From the NCBI RefSeq assembly GCF_000797465.1, contig NZ_JSWG01000006.1:62001-126000 (forward strand): DNA of 64,000 bases, written 5' to 3'. This document shows positions 6,282 through 20,031 of this stretch, in pieces. Both the position numbers and the translations under genes were made by a program. The notes under the pieces were generated by a model, which made no database searches, was not told the origin of the DNA, and saw only the letters and a program-made list of their open reading frames with translations. How positions within the stretch are numbered: position 1 is the stretch's first letter; the number at the start of each line of letters is the position of its first letter. Source of the stretch: Psychroserpens jangbogonensis. Its GTDB lineage: Bacteria; Bacteroidota; Bacteroidia; Flavobacteriales; Flavobacteriaceae.

Positions 6282-6914
6282 ATGTTAGAAGCATTAGAGG
6301 CAAATTATGGGTATTTATTTGAAGAAGAGTTACTTCAAGAAATAAATAGTGTAGGCACCTGCAAAGATATACCAGAAGGATATAAGCTTATAGAAATAGG
6401 AGATTACATTAGATCTATGCCACTTTTAGTGAGTGGAGCTATAAAAATTCTTCGAGAAGATGAGAATGGCGATGAACTCATCTTATATTTTATAGAGCGT
6501 GGAGATACGTGTGCCATGACGCTCTCTTGTTGCTTAGGTCAATCTAAAAGTGAAATAAGAGCTGTGGCTGAAACTGACACAAAATTGATTATGATTCCTG
6601 TTCAAAAAATGGAAGAATGGTTAGGGAAATACAAAAGTTGGCAAAAATTTATTTTGCAAAGTTATCATGATCGAATGTCTGAATTGCTTAATGCCATTGA
6701 CACTATAGCATTTTTAAAAATGGATGAGCGTTTGTTTATATATTTAAAAGATAAAGCGATGGTCAATCATAATGATGTTATACATGTAACTCATCAAGAA
6801 ATTTCACAAGACCTTCATACTTCACGTGTAGTAATTTCTAGATTACTAAAAAAGTTGGCTATTAACGGTAAAATTGAGCTTCAGAGAAATAATATTAAGG
6901 TTATAGACCTATAA
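6282..6914 (+). CDS. Crp/Fnr-family transcriptional regulator, cysteine-containing, Val at CRP position 181
   Basis: The product has 210 residues: a cyclic-nucleotide-binding-like beta-roll (about 25-115), a long dimer helix (about 117-145) and a winged helix-turn-helix (about 165-208). The recognition helix TSRVVISRLLKKL aligns with CSRETVGRILKML of E. coli CRP: Arg180 and Arg185 are kept (R182, R187) and Glu181 is replaced by Val183. Where CRP binds the cAMP phosphate, this protein has GDTCAMTLSCCLG, with Cys77, Cys83 and Cys84; Cys27 is the only other cysteine. It lacks the N-terminal cysteine cluster of FNR, so a thiol- or metal-based sensor is possible but unproven. A matching palindrome starts 3 bp after its stop codon, and four more lie downstream before sulfur-related and efflux genes. 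I infer that it controls them. Confidence 0.93.
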   Translation: MLEALEANYGYLFEEELLQEINSVGTCKDIPEGYKLIEIGDYIRSMPLLVSGAIKILREDENGDELILYFIERGDTCAMTLSCCLGQSKSEIRAVAETDTKLIMIPVQKMEEWLGKYKSWQKFILQSYHDRMSELLNAIDTIAFLKMDERLFIYLKDKAMVNHNDVIHVTHQEISQDLHTSRVVISRLLKKLAINGKIELQRNNIKVIDL

Positions 6915-6916
6915 AA

Positions 6917-6932
6917 GGTGACTTTTGTTACC
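6917..6932. promoter_or_regulatory. Crp/Fnr-type operator before the TauE/SafE gene
   Basis: GGTGACTTTTGTTACC is an inverted repeat (GGTGAC/GTTACC with one mismatch). Its centre, 6924.5, is 29.5 bp before the -7 box at 6954, which places it at about -41.5 from the expected transcription start. Confidence 0.8.
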
Positions 6933-6953
6933 AAATACCGTTCAAATTCAATT

Positions 6954-6961
6954 TAGATTTG
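6954..6961 (+). promoter_or_regulatory. -7 promoter box (TAGATTTG) of the TauE/SafE gene
   Basis: The box matches the Bacteroidota TAnnTTTG consensus. The expected start near 6966 leaves a leader of about 12 nt before ATG 6978. Confidence 0.7.
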
Positions 6962-6977
6962 AATGAAAATATAAGGT

Positions 6978-7778
6978 ATGGATGTACAACAATTTTTAGG
7001 ATACTTTGGAGCACTTTTAATAGGTGTTGTTTTAGGACTTATTGGCGGAGGTGGCTCTATTTTAACAGTTCCAATTTTAGTGTATCTAATGTTTATTAAT
7101 CCAGTAACTGCAACTGCATATTCTTTATTTATTGTTGGAGTATCTGCATTGGTAGGTGCCATAAGGAATATTCAAAAAGGCCTTGTCGATTTTAAAACAG
7201 CTATTGTATTTGCAATTCCTGCATTTATTGCAGTGTATGCAACTCGAAAATATTTGGTGCCTGCCATTCCAGAAGAATTGTTTACCATCAATTCCTTTAT
7301 AATGACTAAGAACATAGCAATCATGCTGTTCTTTGCACTAATAATGTTGGTGGCTTCTATATCAATGATAAGAAATAAACGAAACGATTCTGGAGAAGAA
7401 ACCGTTGTTGTTTATAATTTCCCATTAATAATAATTGAAGGCTTTGTGGTAGGTGTTCTAACAGGTATCGTTGGAGCAGGTGGCGGATTTCTAATTATTC
7501 CAGCGCTAGTTCTTTTAGCCAAGTTGCCAATGAAAAAAGCAGTTGCAACGTCTCTTTTAATTATTGCAATTAAATCACTAATTGGTTTTATAGGAGATGT
7601 TGAAAACTTAGATATCGATTGGATGTTTTTAATCAAATTCACTTCAATTTCGGTCTTCGGGATCTTTTTAGGTATCTACTTGTCAAAGTTTATCAATGGT
7701 AAAAATCTTAAAAAAGGATTTGGTTGGTTTGTACTGGTAATGGGAGTTTATATCATCTTCAAAGAACTAACTAAGTAA
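6978..7778 (+). CDS. TauE/SafE-family sulfite/sulfur-compound exporter
   Basis: This 266-residue membrane protein has about eight hydrophobic segments. It has the two glycine-rich repeats diagnostic of TauE/SafE (DUF81): GVVLGLIGGGGSILTVPILV near residue 20 and VGVLTGIVGAGGGFLIIPAL near residue 160. Family members export sulfite, sulfoacetate or other small sulfur anions across the inner membrane. TauE/SafE proteins are recurrent members of persulfide-responsive operons together with rhodanese and DUF2892, both of which are present here. It has its own Crp/Fnr-type operator and promoter. The exact substrate cannot be read from the sequence. Confidence 0.9.
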   Translation: MDVQQFLGYFGALLIGVVLGLIGGGGSILTVPILVYLMFINPVTATAYSLFIVGVSALVGAIRNIQKGLVDFKTAIVFAIPAFIAVYATRKYLVPAIPEELFTINSFIMTKNIAIMLFFALIMLVASISMIRNKRNDSGEETVVVYNFPLIIIEGFVVGVLTGIVGAGGGFLIIPALVLLAKLPMKKAVATSLLIIAIKSLIGFIGDVENLDIDWMFLIKFTSISVFGIFLGIYLSKFINGKNLKKGFGWFVLVMGVYIIFKELTK

Positions 7779-7783
7779 GAGTG

Positions 7784-7799
7784 TGTAACTTTTGTTACA
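7784..7799. promoter_or_regulatory. Crp/Fnr-type operator before the candidate small RNA
   Basis: TGTAACTTTTGTTACA is a perfect 6-4-6 palindrome. Its centre, 7791.5, is 29.5 bp before the -7 box TACTTTTA at 7821-7828. Confidence 0.85.
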
Positions 7800-7820
7800 T
7801 CACAGCATAAATTTATATAC

Positions 7821-7828
7821 TACTTTTA
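7821..7828 (+). promoter_or_regulatory. -7 promoter box (TACTTTTA) of the candidate small RNA
   Basis: The box is one base off TAnnTTTG and sits at the same distance from its operator as in the three other promoters of this set. The expected transcription start is about 7833. Confidence 0.65.
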
Positions 7829-7832
7829 TACT

Positions 7833-7968
7833 GTTCAAATTAAATAACATTAAAAACATAAATGTTTAAGGATAGAGTTTGATTGCTTGTCCTAAAACAG
7901 CAAGATAGATTACATGATTTTTGGTTGGTAAAAAGCGTGTCCGAAATAATAGTAGGATGCGCTTTTTT
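7833..7968 (+). ncRNA. Candidate Crp/Fnr-controlled small RNA, about 135 nt
   Basis: Between the TauE and rhodanese genes lies a stretch with its own operator and -7 box at the 5' end and a terminator at the 3' end. A second, independent operator and promoter then serve the rhodanese operon. I find no open reading frame above a few codons on the + strand (for example six codons from 7862). A 10-bp helix with one mismatch pairs 7865-7874 with 7888-7897. The structure fits a regulator-induced small RNA, comparable in concept to enterobacterial FnrS, but no homologue is known to me. The alternative is a spurious promoter with a terminator that insulates the rhodanese operon. Confidence 0.55.
7931..7968 (+). 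terminator. Rho-independent terminator of the candidate small RNA
   Basis: AAAAAGCGTGTCC pairs with GGATGCGCTTTTT through a 12-base loop, with two G-U wobbles, and ends in a T tract. It lies upstream of, not after, the rhodanese promoter. Confidence 0.8.
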
Positions 7969-7969
7969 G

Positions 7970-7985
7970 TGTAACAAAGGTTACA
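7970..7985. promoter_or_regulatory. Crp/Fnr-type operator before the rhodanese operon
   Basis: TGTAACAAAGGTTACA is a perfect 6-4-6 palindrome with centre 7977.5, again 29.5 bp before the -7 box at 8007. It begins directly after the T tract of the preceding terminator. Confidence 0.85.
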
Positions 7986-8006
7986 AATCTTAAACTGAAA
8001 ATGGAG

Positions 8007-8014
8007 TACTTTTA
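8007..8014 (+). promoter_or_regulatory. -7 promoter box (TACTTTTA) of the rhodanese operon
   Basis: The box is identical to the one before the candidate small RNA. The expected transcription start near 8019 leaves a leader of about 40 nt before ATG 8060. Confidence 0.65.
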
Positions 8015-8059
8015 TTATGTTTTAGTTCTAGATTAATTATAATAAAAATAGTAAATAGT

Positions 8060-8398
8060 ATGTCGTTTTTGTCTACAATTTTTGGTGGAAAACCACCTCA
8101 CAATGAATACATTGAAGTGCTTTCGCCTATTGACTTTAAAAGTCAAATAAACGGTAAGAGCATTCAATTAATTGATGTAAGGACATCTAAAGAATACAAA
8201 TCTGGTCACATTAAAAACGCTAAAAATATTGACTTTTTTTCAAGAAACTTTGATTTAGAGTTTAATAAACTTAGTAAGGAAAAACCTGTTTATGTGTATT
8301 GTAGAAGTGGGAGTCGCAGCAGACAGACTGCTAGAAAACTGTCAAATATGGATTTTAAAAAAATCTACGATTTAAAAGGAGGAATTCTAAATTATTAA
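8060..8398 (+). CDS. Single-domain rhodanese-like sulfurtransferase
   Basis: The 112-residue protein is one rhodanese domain. It has the DVRTSKEYKSGHIKNAKNI motif (about 39-57) and the active-site loop CRSGSRSR, with catalytic Cys81. Such enzymes carry a persulfide on this cysteine and pass sulfane sulfur from thiosulfate or polysulfide to thiols. No signal peptide is obvious, so it is probably cytoplasmic. It is the first gene of an operon with a cytochrome lipoprotein (3-bp gap), thioredoxin and a methyltransferase. Its own Crp/Fnr operator and the sulfur-related neighbours suggest a role in handling reactive sulfur. Confidence 0.92.
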   Translation: MSFLSTIFGGKPPHNEYIEVLSPIDFKSQINGKSIQLIDVRTSKEYKSGHIKNAKNIDFFSRNFDLEFNKLSKEKPVYVYCRSGSRSRQTARKLSNMDFKKIYDLKGGILNY

Positions 8399-8401
8399 AT
8401 C

Positions 8402-8860
8402 ATGAAAAATATAATATTTGTGTTTACATTATCTATACTGATTTTTAGTTGTAACGACACTAAAAAAGAAACAGCGTATGTATCAATGAAAGCGCTTGAA
8501 ACGGAAAGTACACATCCTGGAAAGAAATTAATGGAAACAAATTGTTATGCTTGTCACAATCCAACAGCAAGCCATGATGATAGACTTGGACCTCCTATGA
8601 TAGCTATCAAAAAGCATTATATAAATGAAGGAGTAACCAAAGAAGAATTTATTAGTGCAATTCAAAATTGGATTAAAAACCCAACTGAAGATAGTGCTAA
8701 AATGAATGGAGCAGTGAGACGTTTTGGAATAATGCCAAAGCAAGTGTTTCCAGAAGAAACAATTGAGCAAATATCCAACTATATTTATGACAATGAGATT
8801 GAACAACCTGAGTGGTTTGAAGAACACTTTAAGTCAAGAAAAGGGAAGAACAGAGGATAA
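8402..8860 (+). CDS. c-type cytochrome lipoprotein
   Basis: The 152-residue protein begins with a lipoprotein signal (ILIFSCN, lipid-bearing Cys about 17) and contains one haem c site, CYACH, at about 48-52. FGIMPKQ provides a likely Met axial ligand. A single-haem class I cytochrome domain fills the rest, ending in a basic tail. It would act as a membrane-anchored periplasmic electron carrier, perhaps taking electrons from the oxidation of sulfur compounds to a terminal oxidase. That partner role is inferred from its place 3 bp behind the rhodanese gene. Confidence 0.88.
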   Translation: MKNIIFVFTLSILIFSCNDTKKETAYVSMKALETESTHPGKKLMETNCYACHNPTASHDDRLGPPMIAIKKHYINEGVTKEEFISAIQNWIKNPTEDSAKMNGAVRRFGIMPKQVFPEETIEQISNYIYDNEIEQPEWFEEHFKSRKGKNRG

Positions 8861-8917
8861 TAATTAGTTGAAATAAATATATAAATGTAATTTTAAACAC
8901 GTAATAGTTTGTCAGGT

Positions 8918-9214
8918 ATGAGCAAGTTTTTAGAAATAATAAATCAAAACAAACCAGTGTTAATCGACTTTTTTGCGGACTGGTGTGGACCTTGTAAAAC
9001 AATGAGCCCTATTTTGAAAGATGTTAAACGTGTTTTGGGAGATAAGGTATCAATTATAAAAATCAATGTTGATAAAAACCAATCCTTAGCCGCTAAATAT
9101 CAAGTTAGAGGCGTACCAACATTTTTATTATTTAAAGAAGGGAAGCAGATTTGGAGACAGTCTGGAATCATTCAAAAAGAAGAATTGCTAAATATTATTT
9201 CAAAAAATAATTAA
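8918..9214 (+). CDS. trxA: Thioredoxin
   Basis: The 98-residue protein is a complete thioredoxin fold with the active site ADWCGPCKT and the cis-proline loop GVPTF. I chose ATG 8918; a TTG three codons upstream (8909) is in frame but adds nothing conserved. It would reduce disulfides or persulfides in the cytoplasm. It lies 57 bp after the cytochrome gene, and its stop codon overlaps the start of the next gene by one base (TAATG), which suggests translational coupling. In this setting it may recycle the rhodanese persulfide, which is inference. Confidence 0.93.
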   Translation: MSKFLEIINQNKPVLIDFFADWCGPCKTMSPILKDVKRVLGDKVSIIKINVDKNQSLAAKYQVRGVPTFLLFKEGKQIWRQSGIIQKEELLNIISKNN

Positions 9215-9801
9215 TGAATTTAAATGAAGATTTCTGGGATCATCGCTATAAAAACAATGATATAGGTTGGGATCTTGGGCAAATATCTACACCACTTAAA
9301 ACTTATATTAATCAACTAACAGACAAATCAATAAGAATTTTGATTCCTGGAGGAGGAAATTCTTATGAGGCTGAATATCTATTTAATCTTGGTTTTAAAA
9401 ATGTCTTTGTTGTTGATGTGTCGCAAACAGCGCTAGACAATATAAAATCACGAATTCCTAGTTTTCCTTCAGAACAATTGTTGAATAAAAACTTCTTCGA
9501 TTTGAATATGATTTTTGATTTGATCTTAGAGCAAACGTTCTTTTGTGCAATCGAACCTCGGTTAAGAAATGATTATGTGATTAAAATGAATGCCTTGCTT
9601 TCTAATAAAGGAAAGTTGACAGGCCTTTTATTTAATGTTGCATTGTATACAGAACGTCCGCCATTTGGAGGTTCTAAATCTGAATATGTTAAGCGTTTTG
9701 GTAACTGTTTTAATATAAGAACTATTGAAAACGCATATAACTCACATGAGTCTAGAGTAGACCAAGAACTATTTTTTATATTAGAAAAAAAGACTAATTA
9801 A
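9214..9801 (+). CDS. SAM-dependent methyltransferase of the TPMT family
   Basis: The 195-residue protein has the TPMT-family opening FWDHRYKNNDIGWDLGQIS, with the WD-G substrate/SAM region, and a SAM-binding motif I of the form ILIPGGGNSYEAEYL (about 42-56). Other conserved parts are VVDVSQTAL and the ERPPFGG segment. Bacterial and plant TPMT-like enzymes methylate thiols, selenium or tellurium compounds, or halides. Methylating sulfide or a thiol would fit the operon (rhodanese, cytochrome, thioredoxin). It overlaps the thioredoxin stop codon by one base. The substrate itself cannot be read. Confidence 0.85.
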   Translation: MNLNEDFWDHRYKNNDIGWDLGQISTPLKTYINQLTDKSIRILIPGGGNSYEAEYLFNLGFKNVFVVDVSQTALDNIKSRIPSFPSEQLLNKNFFDLNMIFDLILEQTFFCAIEPRLRNDYVIKMNALLSNKGKLTGLLFNVALYTERPPFGGSKSEYVKRFGNCFNIRTIENAYNSHESRVDQELFFILEKKTN

Positions 9802-9900
9802 TTATTTATGATACTTTTTAATTACTGACAATTATCATAGTTAATTGAACAACACAATTATAATTTTATAATCTCAAAACAACGACTAAATCTAAATAAT

Positions 9901-10050
9901 ATGATATCTCAAAGCATTGGATTATACAACTGGAATAATGGAGTAATAATGATAGTTATTTTTGGGCTAGTTTGTCTGACTCTTGTAGGTTTTTTAGTGA
10001 AATTTATGACAACTAGTGATAGAAATAAAGATGAGCCTAAAGAAAGGTAG
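9901..10050 (+). CDS. Small single-span membrane protein, 49 residues
   Basis: ATG 9901 opens a 49-codon frame that ends at TAG 10048-10050. The product has a short polar start with tryptophan and asparagine (GLYNWNNG), one strongly hydrophobic span (about 15-35, VIMIVIFGLVCLTLVGFLVK) and a charged tail (DRNKDEPKER). A terminator lies 23 bp downstream. Composition and position argue for a real gene, probably a small subunit or membrane anchor. I do not recognise a named family. It is 99 bp behind the methyltransferase and may be the last gene of that operon or have its own promoter. Confidence 0.7.
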   Translation: MISQSIGLYNWNNGVIMIVIFGLVCLTLVGFLVKFMTTSDRNKDEPKER

Positions 10051-10072
10051 CATTTAGTTTTCTATGGTTATT

Positions 10073-10108
10073 AAAAAAGGGACGCATTTATAATTCGTTC
10101 CTTTTTTA
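10073..10108 (+). terminator. Rho-independent terminator
   Basis: AAAAAAGGGACG pairs with CGTTCCTTTTTT (one G-U) across an 11-base loop, followed by TATG. It closes the rhodanese-to-small-protein region. The remaining bases to 10267 show no gene or clear signal. Confidence 0.85.
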
Positions 10109-10267
10109 TGTTCAAGATTGTCCTATAAAAACTTAATCCTTTAATAATTACCCAATTATCGATTTTATTATCCATTTGAGTAAATTATTTTATTATTTGA
10201 AGTTATCGCCTTATCTTTATTTTGATTTCTAGCAAAATTTGTATTCAACCAAACTAAAGTATCAGTT

Positions 10268-13200
10268 ATGTTTTGCTATAATCGTATTCTAAATTTAAAG
10301 ACTCTATGTTCTATTAGTCTTTTTCTTCTATTTTTTTCTAACGCTTTTGGACAATTACCTTTAGGATATACAGCATCTGAAGTTCAAGATAATTACAATA
10401 CTATAATGGGTGTTGTTTTTAATGCTGACGGAACAAAAATGTTCGTTTGGGAAAAAAGAGGTCATGTTTATGTGTCCAATTGGGATGGATCCCAATACAC
10501 AAGACAAGCTTCTCCTATTCTCGATATTTCTGATGAAGTTGGAGATTGGAGAGATTTTGGTTTTGCTAGTTTTTGTCTAGACCCAAATTTTGATACTAAT
10601 GGTTTAGTATATATGTACTATATGGTAGATAGAGAGCATCTTATGAATTTTGGAACTCCTAGTTATGATCCTAACGATAATGATTATTTTGAAGCTTCTA
10701 TCAGTCGAGTAACTCGATACCAAATTAATATTGGAAGTGATCCATTAACTACTGATTATAATTCTCGAGCTGTTCTTGTTGGTGAATCTGTTTCTACAGG
10801 AGTACCTTTAACACACGAATCTCATGCTGGTGGAACAGTCATTTTTGCAACCGATGGAACCTTATTGGTTTCAACTGGAGATAATGCTAGTTATTCTTCA
10901 ACAGACACTGGAAGTGCTGGCGAAACATATTGGCAACAAGCTATTAACGATGGCATTATGCGTACTGAAGAAAATGTAGGCGCATTTAGAGCTCAAATGA
11001 CAACCTCGCTTTGTGGAAAAGTATTGCGTTTAGATCCTGCGACTGGAGATGGAATTCCTTCAAATCCGCATTATAATGCATCTAATCCGCGTTTACCAGA
11101 ATCAAGGATGTGGGCAATGGGTTTACGTCATCCATTTAGAATGTCAATTCAACAAGGAAGTGGAAGTACCAATCCAACTGATGGAAATCCAGGTATTATT
11201 CAAATTGCTGATGTAGGTTGGGGAACTTGGGAAGATTTACACATTTTTGATAAAGGAGGTCTAAATGGAGGATGGCCTTTATATGAAGGTTTAACACAAC
11301 ACAATGGTTACTATAATAGTGGTACAACAAATCCCGATGAAGGCAATGTGCTTTTTGTTGACAATTGTCCGCAACCAACAGATTTTATAGATAATACTGA
11401 TCCAGCATTAAGACGTTTTGTACATGATCGACCAGAAGTAGCTTGGCGACATGGTGGTAGTAATGAAGCTAGAGTACCTTGGTTTAGTGGAACAACAGCT
11501 ACAAACCCAAGAGTAGGAGCATCTGGGTCTCCAACAACAGGAATTGAGTTTAGAGGAAATACGGCAATTGCTGGAATTTATATTCAAGGTGATGCAATGG
11601 GTAGTAGTATGAATGGTAAATATTTGTTTACAGATTACGTCAGAAACTGGATTAATGTAGCAACGCTCACAGATGGATCGTTAAATTGGATAAGCGATAT
11701 TTCAGAATTAGCGCCAATAAATTTTGGCGATGGAATTGTACATATGATGCAAAACCCTTTGGATGGTTTTATATATTATGTGAATATTTTTGATGGCACT
11801 CTATTTAAAATTTCTTTTGAAGGTCCAACATGGACTGACGAACCAACCGATTTAACTTTACAGTGTGATGCTATTACGAATCCGACTGATGAATTTAATA
11901 ATTGGTTAGCTAGTTTTTCTGGAACTGTTTTATGTGGAAACGCGACGCTTACAAATAATAACTCAGGACTAACTATAACATGTGGTTCTTCTGCTTCAGA
12001 AACAGTTACGTTTACCTTAACTAATGACTGTGGAAATGAAATCACTAAGCAAGCTACATTTACGATTGAGGATAATGATGATCCAACATTCAATGAAGCT
12101 TTACCAGCAAGCACAACAGCAGAATGTGATAACATTCCAACTGAAGAAACGCTAACTGCGTCAGATACGTGCGGAACAGCAATCGTTACATTTGATGAAA
12201 GCACAATACCAGGATCATGTTCTGGAGAATACACGATTACAAGAACTTGGACAGCAACTGACGACTGTGATAATACAGCAGTTCACATCCAAACCATAAC
12301 AGTTGAAGATAATGGTGATCCAACATTCAATGAAACCTTACCAGCAAATACGACAGCAGAATGTGATAACATTCCAACAGAAGAAACGCTTACTGCAACA
12401 GATACTTGCGGAACAACTATCGTTACATTTGATGAAAGCACAACTCCAGGATTATGCACTGGAGAATACACAATTACAAGAACTTGGACTGCAACTGACG
12501 ACTGTGATAACACAGCAGTTCACGTTCAAACCATAACAGTTGAAGATAATGGTGATCCAACGTTTAACGAAACCTTACCAGCAAATACAACTGCAGAATG
12601 TGATAACATTCCAACTGAAGAAACATTGACTGCAACAGATACTTGCGGAACTGCTATCGTTACATTTGATGAAGAGACAACACCAGGAACATGTTCTGGA
12701 GAATACACAATTACAAGAACTTGGACAGCAACTGACGATTGCGATAACACAGCAATTCACGTTCAAACTATTGCAGTTGAAGATAATGGTGATCCAACAT
12801 TCAATGAAGCTTTACCAGCAAGCACAACAGCAGAATGTGATAACATTCCAACAGAAGAAATATTAACAGCTTCAGATACTTGCGGAACAGCTATCGTTAC
12901 ATTTGATGAAAGCGAAACTTCAGGATTATGCGCTGGAGAATACACCATTACAAGAACTTGGACAGCAACTGACCAATGTGATAACACAGCAGTTCACGTT
13001 CAAACCATAACAGTTGAAGATAATGGTGATCCAACGTTTAATGAAACCTTACCAGCAAATACAACAGCAGAATGTGATAACATTCCAACAGAAGAAACAT
13101 TAACAGCTTCAGATACTTGCGGAACAGCTATCGTTACATATGATGAAAGCGAAACTTCAGGATTATGCGCTGGAGAATACACAATTACAAGAACTTGGAC

Positions 13201-13750
13201 AGCAACTGACGAATGCGATAATATAGCAATTCACGTTCAAACCATAACAGTTGAAGATACTACAAGTCCAATTTGGGATACTTTACCTAGTAATCTTACA
13301 GTAAATTGCGGCATTGATTATCAAGCAGCTTATGAAACTTGGTTAGATAGTTTTTCAGGAACAGATAATTGTAGTACACCAATAGTCATTCATAATGCTC
13401 CAGCAACTGTGTCATGTCCAGATGCAGTAGTAGTTACTTTTGAGTTGACTGATGCTTGTGACAACATGTCTATAGCTATATCAACATTTACTATAGAAGG
13501 CACATTACACATTTCAGAAGTTTTTGAAAAGGACATTGTAATATTTCCTAATCCCACAGAAAACTATATTTATATTAAAGGGTTAAAAGACGACAGTCAT
13601 ATGGAAGTCTTTAATTTAGCTGGTCAAAAAGTATTAACAAGACGTATTGTCAATAAAAATCGCATTGAATTCGATTTGAAATCTGGACTCTATATGGTTA
13701 AAATAATTTCAGGATCTAAAACCACAATAAAGAAATTAATAATTAGATAA
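10268..13750 (+). CDS. Secreted PQQ-dependent sugar dehydrogenase-like protein with Ig-like repeats and T9SS tail
   Basis: The product has 1160 residues. A signal peptide (to about FSNAFGQ) is followed by a six-bladed GSDH/sorbosone dehydrogenase-like propeller (about 30-520). Landmarks are THESHAGGTVIF, where His matches the family catalytic base, LLVSTGDNA, GKVLRLDPATGDGIP and MGLRHPFRMS, where Arg matches the family PQQ contact. Residues about 602-996 are five copies of a 79-residue module with four cysteines, flanked by two diverged Ig-like modules. A type A sorting domain ends the protein (IFPNPTENYIYIKG to KTTIKKLIIR). It probably oxidises a sugar outside the cell and is exported by T9SS. 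The repeats probably act as a spacer or in adhesion. Confidence 0.88.
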   Translation: MFCYNRILNLKTLCSISLFLLFFSNAFGQLPLGYTASEVQDNYNTIMGVVFNADGTKMFVWEKRGHVYVSNWDGSQYTRQASPILDISDEVGDWRDFGFASFCLDPNFDTNGLVYMYYMVDREHLMNFGTPSYDPNDNDYFEASISRVTRYQINIGSDPLTTDYNSRAVLVGESVSTGVPLTHESHAGGTVIFATDGTLLVSTGDNASYSSTDTGSAGETYWQQAINDGIMRTEENVGAFRAQMTTSLCGKVLRLDPATGDGIPSNPHYNASNPRLPESRMWAMGLRHPFRMSIQQGSGSTNPTDGNPGIIQIADVGWGTWEDLHIFDKGGLNGGWPLYEGLTQHNGYYNSGTTNPDEGNVLFVDNCPQPTDFIDNTDPALRRFVHDRPEVAWRHGGSNEARVPWFSGTTATNPRVGASGSPTTGIEFRGNTAIAGIYIQGDAMGSSMNGKYLFTDYVRNWINVATLTDGSLNWISDISELAPINFGDGIVHMMQNPLDGFIYYVNIFDGTLFKISFEGPTWTDEPTDLTLQCDAITNPTDEFNNWLASFSGTVLCGNATLTNNNSGLTITCGSSASETVTFTLTNDCGNEITKQATFTIEDNDDPTFNEALPASTTAECDNIPTEETLTASDTCGTAIVTFDESTIPGSCSGEYTITRTWTATDDCDNTAVHIQTITVEDNGDPTFNETLPANTTAECDNIPTEETLTATDTCGTTIVTFDESTTPGLCTGEYTITRTWTATDDCDNTAVHVQTITVEDNGDPTFNETLPANTTAECDNIPTEETLTATDTCGTAIVTFDEETTPGTCSGEYTITRTWTATDDCDNTAIHVQTIAVEDNGDPTFNEALPASTTAECDNIPTEEILTASDTCGTAIVTFDESETSGLCAGEYTITRTWTATDQCDNTAVHVQTITVEDNGDPTFNETLPANTTAECDNIPTEETLTASDTCGTAIVTYDESETSGLCAGEYTITRTWTATDECDNIAIHVQTITVEDTTSPIWDTLPSNLTVNCGIDYQAAYETWLDSFSGTDNCSTPIVIHNAPATVSCPDAVVVTFELTDACDNMSIAISTFTIEGTLHISEVFEKDIVIFPNPTENYIYIKGLKDDSHMEVFNLAGQKVLTRRIVNKNRIEFDLKSGLYMVKIISGSKTTIKKLIIR
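12071..13255 (+). repeat. Five in-frame 237-bp repeats
   Basis: The repeat start GATAATGRTGATCCAAC recurs at 12071, 12308, 12545 and 12782, and again at 13019, each step exactly 237 bp (79 codons). Units encode Ig-like modules with four cysteines (AECDN, DTCGT, C-GEYT, D-CDN). Long stretches are near identical between units, which makes the array prone to copy-number change. Open frames on the opposite strand here are by-products of the repeat. Confidence 0.95.
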
Positions 13751-13817
13751 AAAGACTTTGTAACATTTTTTATTATTCTGCGTCCAATAGGTAATCAATC
13801 AAAACAATCACTTAATC

Positions 13818-14156
13818 ATGAGACAGGATAATCAACTTATAGTTTTAACACATTTAAGCCAATTACTAACCTTTATAACAGGTTTTGGCGGATTGTTAGT
13901 GCCATTAGTTATTTGGCTCACTCAAAAAGATAATGTGTATGCAATGGACGAACAAGGCAAACATATTTTGAACTTTCAATTAAGTATGCTTATTTATAGC
14001 ATAATATGTATACCCTTAATATTGGCATTAGGATTAGGCATTTTAGGTCTATTTATTTTATGTGTTTTATCATTTATATATCCAATTATAAATGCAATTA
14101 GAGCAAGTCACGGAAAAACACCAAGATATCCTTTATCTCTTAATTTTATTAGTTAG
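13818..14156 (+). CDS. DUF4870 domain membrane protein
   Basis: The 112-residue protein fits the DUF4870 (formerly Tic20-like) family. A short polar start (MRQDNQLIVLTHLSQLLTFITG) leads into a hydrophobic segment, the conserved loop WLTQKDNVYAMDEQGKHILNFQLSM and two more hydrophobic segments. The function of the family is unknown. It stands alone between the dehydrogenase and a terminator. Confidence 0.88.
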   Translation: MRQDNQLIVLTHLSQLLTFITGFGGLLVPLVIWLTQKDNVYAMDEQGKHILNFQLSMLIYSIICIPLILALGLGILGLFILCVLSFIYPIINAIRASHGKTPRYPLSLNFIS

Positions 14157-14182
14157 TTATATTTTATAAAGAGGTAAATAAG

Positions 14183-14214
14183 AACGCGCACTTAATTAAG
14201 TGCGCGTTTTTTCT
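14183..14214 (+). terminator. Rho-independent terminator
   Basis: AACGCGCACTTAATTAAGTGCGCGTT is a perfect palindrome (14183-14208) followed by a T tract. A near copy closes the RND operon at 20672-20706. Confidence 0.9.
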
Positions 14215-14248
14215 GTTTAATTAGTATCTAAAACTCTTATTCCTTTTT

Positions 14249-14264
14249 GGTAACATAAGTTACA
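14249..14264. promoter_or_regulatory. Distal Crp/Fnr-type operator of the TolC/RND operon
   Basis: GGTAACATAAGTTACA is an inverted repeat with one mismatch at the outer base. Its centre, 14256.5, is 21 bp (two helical turns) upstream of the proximal site, at about -62.5. Confidence 0.8.
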
Positions 14265-14269
14265 AGGTT

Positions 14270-14285
14270 AGTAACATAGGTTACA
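14270..14285. promoter_or_regulatory. Proximal Crp/Fnr-type operator of the TolC/RND operon
   Basis: AGTAACATAGGTTACA is an inverted repeat (inner GTAAC/GTTAC perfect) with centre 14277.5, again 29.5 bp before the -7 box at 14307. Confidence 0.8.
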
Positions 14286-14306
14286 GACTTCCATTTATCC
14301 TGAACG

Positions 14307-14314
14307 TACTTTTG
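14307..14314 (+). promoter_or_regulatory. -7 promoter box (TACTTTTG) of the TolC/RND operon
   Basis: The box is an exact TAnnTTTG match. The expected transcription start near 14319 is 18 nt before ATG 14337. Confidence 0.75.
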
Positions 14315-14336: not shown

Positions 14337-15644
14337 ATGAAAGCACATATTTATATTCCACTATTTCTTTTGGTTTTCACTTTATCAGTGCAAGCACAGG
14401 AAGTATTACCAATTACAAAAACAGAAGTCCTATCTAAAGTCTCTGAAAACAATACTAGCATTAAAATTTCTAAAGAAGAATTTAATCAAGCCAAAGCAGA
14501 TTATAGACAAACGAATGCTGTGTTCTTACCAAATATCACAGCAAGTCATACAGCAATGGCAACTACAAACCCATTAATGGCTTTTGGGTCTAAATTAAAT
14601 CAAGAAATTTTAACACAGAATGATTTTAATCCTGCGTTATTAAACAATCCTTCGCAGATTGAAAATTTTGCTACAAAACTTGAAATATTACAACCATTAA
14701 TCAATTTAGATGGTATACACCAACGGAAAGCAGCGAAGTCTAAAATGCAAGCCATGTCTTTAAAAACGGAACGTACTCAAGATTATTTAGTATTTGAAGT
14801 TGAAAAAGCATACATGCAATTGCAATTGGCATATAAGGCAGTTGATGTTTTAGAAAAAGCCTTGAAAGCTGCAAATTCAAATAAAAAGCTAGCAGATAAT
14901 ATTTTTAAACAAGGATATTTACAACGTGCAGATGTGTTGAATGTTGAAGTACATGTAACCGAAGTTCAAAACCAATTACAATCGGCTAAAAGTAATATCC
15001 TAAACGCTTCTAATTACTTGTCTTTTTTAATGAATGATGAATCTTATGTGGTCTATACACCAACAGATAGCTTAACGGTTTCAACATTTGCTATTGAAGA
15101 TAAAATGATTTCTGAAAACCGCTCAGATATTAAGGCTATGCAATTTGCTTCAGATGCTTATAAAGCGATGAATAGAGCTGATAAAATGGCATTTTTACCA
15201 AAATTAAATGCCTTTGGAAGTTATGAATTGTACGACAGTCAAGCTTTTCAAGGAGGTGCCAATGGTTATCTATTTGGAGCGCAACTAAGTTGGGACATTT
15301 TTCAAGGCTCTAAACGTTTTGGAAAAGTTCAAAAAAGTAATGCGGAATTTGAGAAATCTAAATTGGAATACAAACAATATGTTTCGAAAAGTAATTTGGA
15401 ATTAAATAAGGCAAAGCGTGCCTTTTTAGATGCTGAAAATAAACTGACCTTAACCACTTTAGGATTACAACAATCGGAAGAATCTCTAAGAATACGAACA
15501 AATAGGTTTAAAGAAGGATTAGAGAAAACGTCGGATTTATTGCTGGCAGAAACACAATATGCCCAAAAGCAATTGGAATACTATCAAACAATATTCGAAT
15601 ACAATTACACACAAGCATATTTACAATTTTTAACTAAAGAATAA
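14337..15644 (+). CDS. TolC-family outer membrane efflux protein
   Basis: The 435-residue protein has a signal peptide (LFLLVFTLSVQAQ) and two outer-membrane efflux protein repeats with long, coiled-coil-rich helices (about 30-220 and 240-430). The conserved NPLMAFGSKLNQEIL and GAQLSWDIFQGSKRFGK stretches support the family. It would form the exit duct of a tripartite pump. It is the first gene of a five-gene run with the adaptor (8 bp on), RND pump, PII-like and DUF2892 genes, and it carries two Crp/Fnr-type operators. Confidence 0.92.
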   Translation: MKAHIYIPLFLLVFTLSVQAQEVLPITKTEVLSKVSENNTSIKISKEEFNQAKADYRQTNAVFLPNITASHTAMATTNPLMAFGSKLNQEILTQNDFNPALLNNPSQIENFATKLEILQPLINLDGIHQRKAAKSKMQAMSLKTERTQDYLVFEVEKAYMQLQLAYKAVDVLEKALKAANSNKKLADNIFKQGYLQRADVLNVEVHVTEVQNQLQSAKSNILNASNYLSFLMNDESYVVYTPTDSLTVSTFAIEDKMISENRSDIKAMQFASDAYKAMNRADKMAFLPKLNAFGSYELYDSQAFQGGANGYLFGAQLSWDIFQGSKRFGKVQKSNAEFEKSKLEYKQYVSKSNLELNKAKRAFLDAENKLTLTTLGLQQSEESLRIRTNRFKEGLEKTSDLLLAETQYAQKQLEYYQTIFEYNYTQAYLQFLTKE

Positions 15645-15652
15645 TTTTTGAA

Positions 15653-16729
15653 ATGAAATATATATATACAATCATAATCATTTCTGCAGCTTTTTTATTA
15701 GCGAGTTGTGGTAGTGAAGATAAAAAGTCCATAGAAGATAATTCTCCCGCAATTGGCGTAAAAGTGAATCAAGTGGAAACAAATGGGAATAGTCCGTTTT
15801 TAAGTGTTAGTGGTAAAATTCAAGCAACCAATAGTGCTGATTTAAGCACAAGGATGATGGGTTACGTAAATAATGTTCACGTAAATGTTGGTGATAAAGT
15901 GCAGAAAGGACAATTATTAGTGTCTATTAATAATACTGATTTACAAGCGAAAAGAGCACAAGTAAATGCAGGTATAACGGAAGCTACTGCTGCTTTTAAT
16001 AATGCACAAAAAGATTACAACCGTTTTAAAAATTTGTTAGCAGATAATAGTGCTTCACAAAAAGAAATGGATGATATGACTGCTAATTTTGAAATGGCTA
16101 AGGCTCGCTTAGAATCTGCAAATCAAATGAAAAACGAAGTAAGTGCACAATTTGCTTATAGCAATATCACTGCACCATTTAGCGGAACAATTACAAGTAA
16201 AAATGTTAAGGCAGGAAACATGGCTAATCCAGGAATTCCATTGATTAGCATAGAAACTCCAGGAGATTTTGAAGTTATGGCAATGGTACCGGAAACTGAA
16301 ATTTTAGAAATTATTAAAGGAACTTCAGTAAGTGTATTAGTGAAATCTATTAACAAAGCGATACAAGGAGAAGTTGCAGAAGTAAGTATCTCAGCAAAAA
16401 ACACGGGAGGACAATATTTAGTAAAAATAGACTTGGATAAAACAAATGCCAATATTTTGTCGGGAATGTTCACAACAGTACAGTTTCCAGTAATGCGAAA
16501 AGGAAAATCTGAAATCACATTAATTCCAACAGAAGCAATTGTAACTAACGGTCAATTATCTGGAGTTTACACAGTAAGTCAGAGTAATACTGCCATTTTA
16601 CGATGGTTGCGTTTAGGCAGATCTTATGGAAATCAAGTTCAAGTATTATCAGGTTTAAATGCAAATGAATCGTATATCGTTTCTGCTGATGGGAAACTCT
16701 ATAATGGAGCTAAAATTACGATTCAATAA
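15653..16729 (+). CDS. RND efflux periplasmic adaptor (HlyD/AcrA family), lipoprotein
   Basis: The 358-residue protein has a lipobox (FLLASCG, Cys about 19) that anchors it to a membrane. A lipoyl-like half (MGYVNNVHVNVGDKVQKGQLL), an alpha-hairpin (about 100-165), the second lipoyl half (NITAPFSGTITSKNVKAGNM) and a beta-barrel domain follow in the usual adaptor order. It bridges the TolC-like duct and the RND pump. The spacing to the TolC gene is 8 bp, and a weak hairpin lies between it and the pump gene. Confidence 0.92.
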   Translation: MKYIYTIIIISAAFLLASCGSEDKKSIEDNSPAIGVKVNQVETNGNSPFLSVSGKIQATNSADLSTRMMGYVNNVHVNVGDKVQKGQLLVSINNTDLQAKRAQVNAGITEATAAFNNAQKDYNRFKNLLADNSASQKEMDDMTANFEMAKARLESANQMKNEVSAQFAYSNITAPFSGTITSKNVKAGNMANPGIPLISIETPGDFEVMAMVPETEILEIIKGTSVSVLVKSINKAIQGEVAEVSISAKNTGGQYLVKIDLDKTNANILSGMFTTVQFPVMRKGKSEITLIPTEAIVTNGQLSGVYTVSQSNTAILRWLRLGRSYGNQVQVLSGLNANESYIVSADGKLYNGAKITIQ

Positions 16730-16745
16730 CAAATAAGTTACGTTA

Positions 16746-16769
16746 AGGATAGAAGTGAAAATCCTTTTT
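16746..16769 (+). terminator. Weak intercistronic hairpin with T tract
   Basis: AAGGAT pairs with ATCCTT over a 10-base loop, followed by TTTTTG. With only six base pairs it may act as a partial terminator or mRNA-processing site between the adaptor and pump genes. It is not a full stop, since no promoter is evident after it. Confidence 0.4.
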
Positions 16770-16836
16770 TTGTTACCATTTATGGCAAAGAAAGATTGAA
16801 ACGAATAGCCTGTTAAAACGCTCAAAAAAAAATAAA

Positions 16837-19800
16837 ATGAAAGAAGGTATCGCAGGAAAAATTGCCAAAGTCTTTATGCAATCAAAGCTTACAGTGCTTT
16901 TAATGATTGTGTTTATGGTAGTTGGTGTATATAGTTCATTTTTGATTCCTCGTGAAGAAGAACCACAAATTGATGTGCCTATGGCAGATATTTTTGTTGG
17001 TTATCCTGGAGCAAGCCCTACTGAAGTAGAATCGCGAGTGATAAAGCCATTAGAACAATTAATTTCGAATATTAAAGGTGTAGAATATGTGTACTCTACG
17101 TCAATGAAAGAGCAAGGTATGGTTATCGTGCAGTTTTATGTTGGCGAAGATATTGAGCGTTCGTTTGTGAAATTATATAACGAGATTAACAAACACATGG
17201 ATCAAATGCCTCAAGGCGTAACGTTTCCGTTAGTTAAAACTCGCGCAATTGATGATGTGCCAATGCTAGGATTAACGCTTTGGAGTGAAACTTATGACGA
17301 TTATCAATTGAGTCAAATAGCTCAAGAATTAGAGTCCGAAATTAAGAAGATAAATGATGTTGCTATTACACATAAAATAGGAGGAAGGAACCGCCAATTA
17401 CGTGTCGTATTAGATAAAGACAAATTAGCAGCAAGCGGCTTGGATTTCTTGTCGGTTTCTGAAATGATTAAGGCAAATAATTCACAATTAGTCTCCGGGA
17501 GTTTTGATAAGAACGACAGTGAATTCCTTGTAAATACTGGAAAATTTTTGGAATCTGTTACTGACGTTGAAAACTTAGTAGTTGGTGTGCAACAAAGTCA
17601 GCCTATTTATCTGAAGCAAGTTGCTAACATTATTGATGGACCTGAAGTGCCTCAAAATTATGTGAGTTTAGGTTTTGGACATGGCAGTGAGAAAGCGTCA
17701 GATTTCAAATCGGAATATCCTGCAGTAACCATTTCCATAGCGAAACGAAAAGGTGCAGATGCTATGAAAATAGCGGAAGTCATTATTGAAAAAGTGAATC
17801 ACTTACGTGCCACTTTAATTCCAGATGATGTTCATGTGGAAGTTACCAGAAACTATGGTGAAACAGCATCACATAAGGTGTCAGAATTACTGTTGCACCT
17901 TATAGGATCTATATTTGCAGTAACTATTGTTGTGATGTTAGCAATGGGTTGGCGTGGAGGATTGGTCGTGTTTTTATCAGTTCCAATTACATTTGCATTG
18001 ACTTTGTTAAGTTATTATATGCTCGATTACACATTAAACCGAATCACGCTTTTCGCTTTAGTATTTGTAACAGGAATCGTCGTTGATGACTCCATTATTA
18101 TTGCCGAAAATATGCATAGGCATTTTAAAATGAAACGTCTGCCATTTAAACAAGCAGCTTTATATGCAATTAACGAAGTTGGTAATCCAACCATTTTGGC
18201 CACATTTACAGTAATTGCGTCTGTTTTACCAATGGCTTTTGTTTCTGGATTAATGGGGCCATATATGGCACCAATGCCAATAGGAGCTTCTATTGCAATG
18301 ATTTTGTCATTGTTTGTAGCCTTGACAATTACACCATATTTAGGTTATATTTTCCTAAAGGAAAAAGATAAGAAAGGGAAAATTGAAAAAGTTGAAAAAC
18401 CATTAGAAGAAACTTTCATATATAAAATTTACAACAAATTTGAACGTCCTTTATTAGAAAGCAAAAGAAAACGGTGGTTATTTTTATTGGGGACTTTTGT
18501 AGTCTTATTGGGAACAATGGTCTTGTTTTTTACCAATTCTGTAGCTGTAAAAATGTTGCCATTTGATAATAAGAATGAATTTCAGATTGTCATAGATATG
18601 CCAGAAGGCACAACCTTGGAGCGCACTGGAGTTGTAACACAAGAAATTGCACAATATCTATCTACACGACCAGAAGTGGTAAATTATCAGAATTATATTG
18701 GGACATCTGCACCAATAACTTTTAATGGTTTGGTGCGTCATTACGATTTGCGTGGTGGAAGCAATATGGCAGATATTCAAGTTAATTTAATTGATAAAGG
18801 AGAGCGTTCTGCACAAAGTCATGATATCGCTAAACTATTGCGTCCAGAGATCCAGAAAATTGCTTCAAAATACAATGCGAATGTAAAATTGGTAGAAGTT
18901 CCACCAGGACCACCAGTATTGTCAACTATTGTCGCTGAAGTTTATGGACCAGATTATGACGAACAAATTAAAGTAGCGAATAGTGTTAAAAACATATTGA
19001 AAAACACAGATGATGTGGTTGATATTGATTGGATGGTAGAAGCAGATCAAACCGAATATCAATTCGACATAAACAAAGAAAAAGCGATGTTGTATGGTGT
19101 TGCACCACAGCAAATAGCGTATACCATGAATATGGCTTTATCCAATAGAGCAATCACGAATCTATATGATGAAGATGCGGTTATTCAAGTTGGGTTGGTA
19201 TTGGCTTTAGATGAAATGGAGAAATCTACAATTAATGATATTTCACAATTAAAAGTCAAGTCGAAACAAGGGAACATGATCCCAATTGCAGATTTGGTAG
19301 AAATTAAACAAACAACAGCTGCAAAAAGTATTTTCCGTAAGAACCAAAAACGTGTGGTTTATGTAATGGCAGATATGGCTGGAGAATTAGAGAGTCCTGC
19401 TTATGCTATTTTAGGAATGGAAGAAAAGTTGAAAGAAATACCCTTACCAAAAGGCTATGAGATTAACGAAATGTATTTGGGTCAGCCAGATTTTGAAGAC
19501 GATTATACCGTAAAATGGGATGGAGAATGGCAAATTACTCTAGAAGTATTTAGAGATTTAGGAATTGCCTTTTTAGGAGCTATCATCCTTATTTACATTT
19601 TGATTGTTGGCTGGTTTCAAAACTTTAAAGCACCAATTGTAATGATGGTTGCCATTCCATTATCCTTAATAGGAATTATTCTAGGACATTGGATAATGGG
19701 AGCATTTTTCACTGCAACATCATTTATAGGTATGATTGCTTTGGCGGGAATCATGGTTCGAAATTCGGTATTGCTGATTGACTTTATCAATTTAAGAACA

Positions 19801-20031
19801 GCTGAAGGTGTGCCATTAAAACAAGCAGCAATTGAAGCAGGAGCAGTTAGAACGACACCAATTTTATTAACGGCAGGAACGGTTGTTATTGGCGCATTTG
19901 TAATCCTGTTTGATCCAATTTTTCAAGGGTTAGCAATTTCGCTAATGGGAGGAACTATTGTTTCAACCGTGTTGACATTATTAGTTGTACCACTTGTGTA
20001 TTATATGATTGAGAAGAAAAATTATAAATAA
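16837..20031 (+). CDS. RND efflux pump permease subunit
   Basis: The 1064-residue protein has the AcrB/MexB-type layout: a first membrane span at 13-33, a large periplasmic loop, membrane spans 2-6 (about 350-500), a second loop and a final bundle. The proton-relay pair is present in TGIVVDDSIIIAEN (Asp417 and Asp418). The opening motif FLIPREEEPQIDVPMADIFVGYPGASPTEVE is typical of a branch of RND pumps of unknown substrate in Bacteroidota and sulfur bacteria. Substrates are not readable. The regulatory link to rhodanese and TauE genes suggests a sulfur-related or stress-generated compound. Confidence 0.93.
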   Translation: MKEGIAGKIAKVFMQSKLTVLLMIVFMVVGVYSSFLIPREEEPQIDVPMADIFVGYPGASPTEVESRVIKPLEQLISNIKGVEYVYSTSMKEQGMVIVQFYVGEDIERSFVKLYNEINKHMDQMPQGVTFPLVKTRAIDDVPMLGLTLWSETYDDYQLSQIAQELESEIKKINDVAITHKIGGRNRQLRVVLDKDKLAASGLDFLSVSEMIKANNSQLVSGSFDKNDSEFLVNTGKFLESVTDVENLVVGVQQSQPIYLKQVANIIDGPEVPQNYVSLGFGHGSEKASDFKSEYPAVTISIAKRKGADAMKIAEVIIEKVNHLRATLIPDDVHVEVTRNYGETASHKVSELLLHLIGSIFAVTIVVMLAMGWRGGLVVFLSVPITFALTLLSYYMLDYTLNRITLFALVFVTGIVVDDSIIIAENMHRHFKMKRLPFKQAALYAINEVGNPTILATFTVIASVLPMAFVSGLMGPYMAPMPIGASIAMILSLFVALTITPYLGYIFLKEKDKKGKIEKVEKPLEETFIYKIYNKFERPLLESKRKRWLFLLGTFVVLLGTMVLFFTNSVAVKMLPFDNKNEFQIVIDMPEGTTLERTGVVTQEIAQYLSTRPEVVNYQNYIGTSAPITFNGLVRHYDLRGGSNMADIQVNLIDKGERSAQSHDIAKLLRPEIQKIASKYNANVKLVEVPPGPPVLSTIVAEVYGPDYDEQIKVANSVKNILKNTDDVVDIDWMVEADQTEYQFDINKEKAMLYGVAPQQIAYTMNMALSNRAITNLYDEDAVIQVGLVLALDEMEKSTINDISQLKVKSKQGNMIPIADLVEIKQTTAAKSIFRKNQKRVVYVMADMAGELESPAYAILGMEEKLKEIPLPKGYEINEMYLGQPDFEDDYTVKWDGEWQITLEVFRDLGIAFLGAIILIYILIVGWFQNFKAPIVMMVAIPLSLIGIILGHWIMGAFFTATSFIGMIALAGIMVRNSVLLIDFINLRTAEGVPLKQAAIEAGAVRTTPILLTAGTVVIGAFVILFDPIFQGLAISLMGGTIVSTVLTLLVVPLVYYMIEKKNYK

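Follow-up and report, generated by a model that had tools for sequence, protein, structure and literature searches.

Operators at a fixed −41.5 position beside a cysteine-bearing Crp/Fnr-type regulator: a probable activator of reactive-sulfur genes in Psychroserpens jangbogonensis

Control of sulfur-oxidation genes through reactive cysteines is described, in the available text of PMC9774590 and PMC9918477, for CstR (CsoR family), SqrR/BigR (ArsR family) and FisR (a sigma-54 activator), with CstR and SqrR acting as repressors; beside these three families the same texts report the general redox regulators OxyR and MarR. Within the Crp/Fnr superfamily, the cyanobacterial 2-oxoglutarate-dependent activator NtcA is presented in the accessible part of PMC3898017 as a class II activator working from GTAN8TAC at −41.5. 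The Crp of Acinetobacter baumannii, 50% identical to Escherichia coli Crp, is persulfidated in sulfide-treated cells, with an effect stated to be unknown and, as far as the accessible portion of PMC7315123 goes, with no link to a sulfur regulon. Here we describe a 64,000-nucleotide stretch of the genome of the flavobacterium Psychroserpens jangbogonensis (assembly GCF_000797465.1, contig NZ_JSWG01000006.1, positions 62,001 to 126,000, forward strand; hereafter ‘the window’), in which five Crp/Fnr-type palindromes accompany a gene for a regulator of the same superfamily, and we consider it probable that this regulator is a class II activator of a reactive-sulfur regulon, responding to a persulfide or polysulfide signal through its cysteines. 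Among the matches listed from titles and abstract beginnings in the open literature, none reports that a sulfide regulon in Bacteroidota is governed by a Crp/Fnr regulator; a homologue in one Flavobacteriales metagenome-assembled genome is treated as MalR-like in PMC8510549, the accessible text of which contains no persulfide term.

All five palindromes named in a preliminary description of this DNA are present in the window exactly as written there, and the distance of 29.5 bp that it gave between the centre of the operator and the first base of the −7 box is exact in all four promoters. In a flavobacterial start-site map (PMC9723704, in part) the sigma-A box TAnnTTTG occupies −12 to −5, and because the box lies there and the spacing is 29.5 bp, the operator centre falls at −41.5. 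The regulator and the promoter elements are as follows.

6282–6914, + strand: Crp/Fnr-type regulator of 210 aa (‘CRPX’), from Pfam PF00027 and PF13545 and an 81-protein alignment
6917–6932, + strand: operator 1, GGTGAC-TTTT-GTTACC, centre 6924.5 (−41.5), one half-site (GGTGAC) off consensus; an equivalent site precedes TauE in relatives
6954–6961, + strand: −7 box TAGATTTG of the TauE promoter, operator 1 centre + 29.5
7784–7799, + strand: operator 2, TGTAAC-TTTT-GTTACA, centre 7791.5 (−41.5), promoter of a deleted dioxygenase-rhodanese gene
7821–7828, + strand: −7 box TACTTTTA of the relict promoter, operator 2 centre + 29.5
7970–7985, + strand: operator 3, TGTAAC-AAAG-GTTACA, centre 7977.5 (−41.5)
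8007–8014, + strand: −7 box TACTTTTA of the rhodanese operon, operator 3 centre + 29.5
14249–14264, + strand: operator 4 (distal), GGTAAC-ATAA-GTTACA, centre 14256.5 (−62.5)
14270–14285, + strand: operator 5 (proximal), AGTAAC-ATAG-GTTACA, centre 14277.5 (−41.5)
14307–14314, + strand: −7 box TACTTTTG of the RND-pump operon, operator 5 centre + 29.5

The earlier statement that the palindromes lie only in gaps before genes needs a correction: the promoter at 7784 precedes a relict and not a gene. The tandem pair seen at the RND-pump promoter recurs in locus L108 and, with one mismatch, in L113.

The same arrangement is found in the best 80 of 290 loci that encode a relative of the regulator (1.53 Mb; the closest named relative by regulator, at 93%, is the flavobacterium Psychroserpens mesophilus, locus L001). 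Exact GTAAC-N4-GTTAC occurs there 198 times, 189 of them in noncoding DNA, with predicted reading frames covering 86.6% of the sequence (coding fraction 0.866). Control patterns with spacers of N2, N3, N5 and N6 gave 1, 2, 0 and 1 matches, respectively, and the reversed motif gave 4. A TAnnTTT(G/A) box at exactly 29.5 bp from the centre accompanies 161 of the 189 noncoding palindromes, the next best offset, 28.5, being found for 13 and 30.5 for 3; after dereplication of the flanks below 75, 60 and 50% identity the box at 29.5 was retained in 137/162, 122/145 and 78/97 sites. The sites are palindromes of two 5–6-bp half-sites, as is typical of the superfamily, and their fixed spacing in 80 loci, together with the published position of the box, strongly supports the Crp/Fnr-type class II (−41.5) reading proposed earlier. 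A composite pattern (GTNACN4GTTAC, 22 bp, TANNTTT) with up to one mismatch was matched 10 times in the source genome (3.63 Mb) against 1 match for the control, an enrichment over background, and its zero-mismatch matches, four in number, are exactly the four promoters of the window.

As had been noted from the sequence, the gene beside the first site encodes a Crp/Fnr-type protein: its product scored 40.2 bits with PF00027 (cNMP-binding beta-roll; cut-off 27.5) and 31.1 with PF13545 (HTH_Crp_2; cut-off 27). All 81 aligned regulator proteins have cysteine at the three positions C77, C83 and C84, and no other column of the alignment holds cysteine in 30% or more of the sequences; all three are present in 27/30 proteins of a second set, partly from the same genomes, and in 27/29 of a class-wide set; like the regulators of persulfide response, the protein therefore has conserved cysteines as candidate sensors. 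When aligned with Crp, with which it has fold, domain order and class II geometry in common, the triad covers the phosphate-binding cassette, where Crp binds the phosphate of cAMP. Residues E72 and R82 of Crp, which contact cAMP, correspond to M79 and K89, and the contacts are thus not retained; Crp-type TGTGA-N6-TCACA occurs only twice in the 1.53 Mb of loci. The AlphaFold model, of moderate confidence (pLDDT 77.7, pTM 0.59), agrees with a Crp/Fnr fold and is silent on thiol geometry. The best sequence match in the PDB is 3dv8 (profile E 8.9e-20), an uncharacterised Crp/Fnr regulator of Eubacterium rectale, a member of a different phylum; in its aligned loop the cysteines equivalent to C77 and C83 are retained, with isoleucine at the position of C84.

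NtcA is the second-best sequence match among solved structures and appears in one structure comparison, while it is not among the 50 matches listed in another. Its operator core GTA-N8-TAC coincides with the GTAAC-N4-GTTAC core, the sites here placing it at −41.5, and the recognition helices are similar (STRVTVTRLL and TSRVVISRLL; that of the regulator is TSRVVISRLLKKL). However, the regulator scored 51.3 against an NtcA equivalog cut-off of 244.95, it has three cysteines in the ligand region, and its targets are sulfur and not nitrogen genes. Judged by these alignments, the DNA-binding half would work like that of NtcA, and the sensing half would be unlike that of Crp or FNR.

The genes that follow the operators in the window are listed below.

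6978–7778, + strand: predicted exporter of the TauE/SafE family (PF01925, 154.4 bits; no NCBIfam match for this protein)
8060–8398, + strand: rhodanese-domain protein of sulfurtransferase type (PF00581)
8402–8860, + strand: c-type cytochrome (PF00034)
8921–9214, + strand: thioredoxin (TIGR01068 above cut-off)
9214–9801, + strand: TPMT-family methyltransferase (PF05724)
14337–15644, + strand: TolC-family outer-membrane efflux protein (PF02321)
15653–16729, + strand: RND periplasmic adaptor (TIGR01730 above cut-off)
16837–20031, + strand: RND permease, AcrB family (PF00873)

Taken across the 80 loci and the window, the predicted targets form a sulfide/persulfide regulon. The 175 site-gene pairs fall into 18 clusters, with families checked for part of them: TauE (48 pairs), dioxygenase-rhodanese (38) and rhodanese (28; these two being one cluster split by length, the latter count including the relict 7784 site of the window, counted with the gene that follows), SQR-like (9), cytochrome c (8), peroxiredoxin (6), HMA-domain (6), the regulator itself (5), TolC (5), DUF983 (5) and CydA-like (3), with smaller YeeE-like, YgaP-like, SulP-like and molybdopterin oxidoreductase-like clusters. 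The CydA-like, YeeE-like, SulP-like, molybdopterin oxidoreductase-like and Fe-S clusters and two clusters of unknown kind were named by eye from representatives. Sites therefore stand before genes of the SQR, dioxygenase, rhodanese and TauE types, as in known persulfide regulons, the dioxygenase being recognised by its domains only (metallo-beta-lactamase and rhodanese). The TauE gene lies directly 3′ of the regulator gene in 57/80 loci. Outside the window, the fifth exact operator of the source genome (contig C61) stands upstream of a FadL-like gene (by eye), a type III SQR (NF049943, 652.3 bits, cut-off 525), DsrC (TIGR03342 above cut-off) and a DsrE-family gene (PF13686). A scan of 57 genomes, including the source genome, for the composite with both exact half-sites led to 30 loci, of which 29 hold a target-type or regulator gene and five have TolC behind the site; class-wide, a target-type gene is present in the stretch examined in 23 of 29 loci. 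Sites before TolC genes were recorded in up to 12 genomes.

The sites, their constant spacing, the joint occurrence of regulator and operator, the families of the targets and the conserved cysteines are results of computation; we infer from them that the product of 6282–6914 binds the operators, activates rather than represses, and responds to persulfide. In such a scheme sulfide would be oxidised to persulfide, and persulfide or polysulfide, the most likely signal, would modify C77, C83 and C84; the regulator dimer would then bind TGTAAC-N4-GTTACA and recruit polymerase from −41.5 at sigma-A promoters, the operator taking the place of the −33 element. Genes for exporter, transferase, dioxygenase, SQR and repair functions would rise, covering export, rhodanese transfer, persulfide dioxygenation, sulfide:quinone oxidation, thioredoxin/peroxiredoxin repair, thiol methylation and efflux, and the tandem sites at −62.5 and −41.5 would activate the RND pump. 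For the wider proposal, that this is a Crp/Fnr reactive-sulfur sensor whose C-x5-CC triad replaces the cAMP cassette and which governs sulfide detoxification as its master activator in much of the class, switching on the RND pump as well, we consider the chances evenly balanced.

The regulon could be as described and its signal a different one, with the cysteines holding a metal, an Fe-S cluster or heme or forming a plain disulfide, and the protein sensing oxygen, NO or a general oxidation of thiols that goes along with sulfide oxidation. Relatives within the superfamily commonly sense redox state or gases, and the structure comparison lists the CO-sensing CooA, FNR and Porphyromonas gingivalis HcpR; moreover, thioredoxin, peroxiredoxin and a CydA-like protein (named by eye) among the targets have general redox roles. 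HcpR, a Crp/Fnr protein of Porphyromonas, responds to NO stress through heme; it was not among the sequence matches of the regulator in searches at E 0.01 and, with a profile, E 0.001. The 81 proteins have no conserved N-terminal cysteine cluster of the FNR kind, and none of the 23 FNR-type sites (TTGATN4ATCAA) in the loci is noncoding. As the core targets TauE, dioxygenase-rhodanese, SQR and DsrC/DsrE point to sulfur and not to oxygen or NO, we regard a different signal as unlikely.

Another explanation is that the palindromes are repressor sites, at which the bound protein blocks polymerase until sulfur inactivates it. Persulfide regulators do include repressors, namely CstR and SqrR/BigR (PMC9774590, in the part available), and operator and −33 region overlap. 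Against this, TTTG was found in the −33 region of only 1/153 dereplicated promoters, and the absence of this element, together with the fixed centre at about −41.5, fits class II activation. For NtcA, whose site and spacing are the same, activation from that position is described in the accessible text of PMC3898017. Repression is accordingly a distinctly improbable alternative to activation.

That the sites are bound by a different Crp/Fnr paralogue, and not by the neighbouring regulator, is an idea favoured by 12 first-look candidates in the source genome and by the similarity of the sites that Crp/Fnr proteins share. The operator, however, tracks the orthologue of this regulator. When the 57 genomes were graded by the identity of their best regulator match, the composite was present in 19/19 genomes with a match at 59% or more, in 7/13 at 43–54%, and in 1/25 below 43% or without a match (Fisher p 1.4e-11 for the two extremes), with 74 composite matches against 3 for the reversed control (hand count). 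Among 197 genomes of the class the composite was matched 54 times, 3 of these in the window, and the reversed control 6 times; of the 37 genomes with the composite, 33 hold a family member at E 1e-40 (hand count). In several remote genomes (for example G125, G164, G185, G213 and G223) the site abuts the regulator gene, and a single gene of the source genome matches the regulator at E 1e-30 or better. Binding by a paralogue is thus very improbable, and the five sites are very probably binding sites of the neighbouring Crp/Fnr regulator.

In the window, GTWACN4GTTAC with up to one mismatch was matched 14 times (a palindrome counting once per strand) against a shuffle mean of 4.97, and none of 100 shuffles reached 14. 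Sampled noncoding window DNA (1,163 nt) contains the box TAnnTTT(G/A) 10 times, the four reported boxes included; its frequency per noncoding position is 0.0048 across the 80 loci. For three further boxes at the offset set by the first, the expectation is approximately 0.0086 cubed, that is 6e-7 or less, with the box definition having been chosen after the fact; the four spacing matches, as previously argued, are very unlikely to be due to chance. Chance or an AT-rich bias, to which the near-equality of exact palindromes and reversed control in the source genome (7 against 5) might point, is practically dismissed by the spacing-controlled and comparative tests, such as the 161 of 189 sites with their controls.

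Several results nevertheless weigh against the proposed persulfide-responsive class II activator. Part of the triad (C83/C84) is lost in some homologues of 43–52% identity: L148, L151 and L183 keep C77 alone, and L157 and L193 keep C77 and C83. The L148 regulator, with only C77 retained, still adjoins a YeeE-like gene (by eye), and C77 alone may be essential among the three cysteines. Confidence in the model is lowest at the cysteine loop (residues 78–90, pLDDT under 50). On the side of the targets, the dioxygenase passes no NCBIfam cut-off among the matches listed (25 of 31), the 420-aa SQR-like protein of relatives scored 219.9 against a cut-off of 525, and among the 29 class-wide loci 6 are without a target-type gene and 4 have the site inside a predicted open reading frame (ORF). 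As for the sites, 28 of the 189 are without a box at 29.5; the one before the SQR operon on C61 has its box at 51.5 bp and hence lies at −63.5 and not −41.5, which would be a class I-like position; and the palindrome alone is at background level genome-wide, the 7 exact occurrences in the source genome (4 in the window, 1 before the SQR operon, 2 in long reading frames) comparing with 5 for the reversed pattern. Finally, a family member is present in 121/197 genomes of the class and the composite in 37 only, which implies other sites or another spacing for most remote members.

The promoter at 7784 serves no gene now, the dioxygenase-rhodanese gene that relatives have at this place having been deleted here. 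Two features follow its box.

7829–7929, + strand: relict resembling the 3′ end of the relatives’ dioxygenase-rhodanese gene, from alignment with L001, L003 and L004; no ORF of 20 aa or more
7930–7968, + strand: intrinsic-type terminator, AAAAAGCG...CGCTTTTTT, conserved downstream of the relatives’ dioxygenase-rhodanese gene

In L001, L002, L004 and L005 a 471-aa reading frame, in L001 a dioxygenase-rhodanese by its domains, lies behind the second operator, and in relatives the conserved terminator stands immediately before the third operator. Operator, box and terminator are kept but the gene is lost in both the window and L003; L003 has short pieces like both ends of the gene, and in the window no more than a fragment like its 3′ end is left. 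A regulated small RNA at 7831–7968 (fold z −3.12; no Rfam match at E ≤ 1) was rejected, since the relatives show a deleted gene with promoter and terminator left, although a transcript from the relict promoter may still be made. A dioxygenase paralogue, 63% identical, is encoded elsewhere in the source genome (contig C1); the surrounding 12 kb contain no GTNACN4GTNAC palindrome. The window locus likewise lacks the SQR-like gene found at the L001 locus, the best match to the product of that gene in the source genome being the type III SQR on C61 (28% identical). The cytochrome of the window measures 152 aa, compared with 331–338 aa in several relatives (L001, L003, L015), and is without the C-terminal Tll0287 domain (PF11845) present in the 332-aa homologue of L001. 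With its short cytochrome and the loss of the dioxygenase and the SQR-like gene, the locus looks reduced.

Other features were observed in the window and the source genome. A 49-aa ORF at 9901–10050, without Pfam match, recurs near the sulfur genes in 22/80 loci. The palindrome TGACAATTATCA (9826–9837; also near the SQR operon on C61, locus L086) was dropped as an unproven second motif; its relaxed form has 7 matches in 81 sequences, 6 noncoding and 1 upstream of the small (49-aa) ORF, and it might belong to another regulator. A large protein with five 79-aa tandem repeats, by eye secreted-looking and dehydrogenase-like, is encoded at 10268–13750. A terminator-like hairpin, GCGCACTTAATTAAGTGCGC, followed by T’s (14186–14212), lies after a small gene (13818–14156) and before the tandem operators, and a Flavo-1 RNA (RF01705, 58.8 bits, gathering 42) at 16732–16819 lies between the RND adaptor and permease genes. 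Elsewhere in the source genome, a variant site, TGTGACTTTTGTCACA, with its box at 29.5 (C62:523153–523195; L094), stands between NifU-like and ferredoxin-reductase-like genes (by eye) and is possibly that of another Crp/Fnr regulator.

The preliminary description had not recognised the sulfide/persulfide function, the cysteines that are likely to act as sensors, the resemblance of the operator to that of NtcA, or the relict nature of the 7784 promoter. Beside the persulfide regulators reported so far, the protein would be a Crp/Fnr class II activator with a signal that is likely to be new. The relict at 7784 shows that an operator can stay intact after the loss of its gene. If the reading is true, many bacteria of the class would use a Crp/Fnr activator for their persulfide response, the Crp scaffold would have exchanged a nucleotide ligand for a reactive thiol signal, and environmental sulfide would be linked to efflux-pump expression by an operator and a promoter geometry shared with the sulfur genes.

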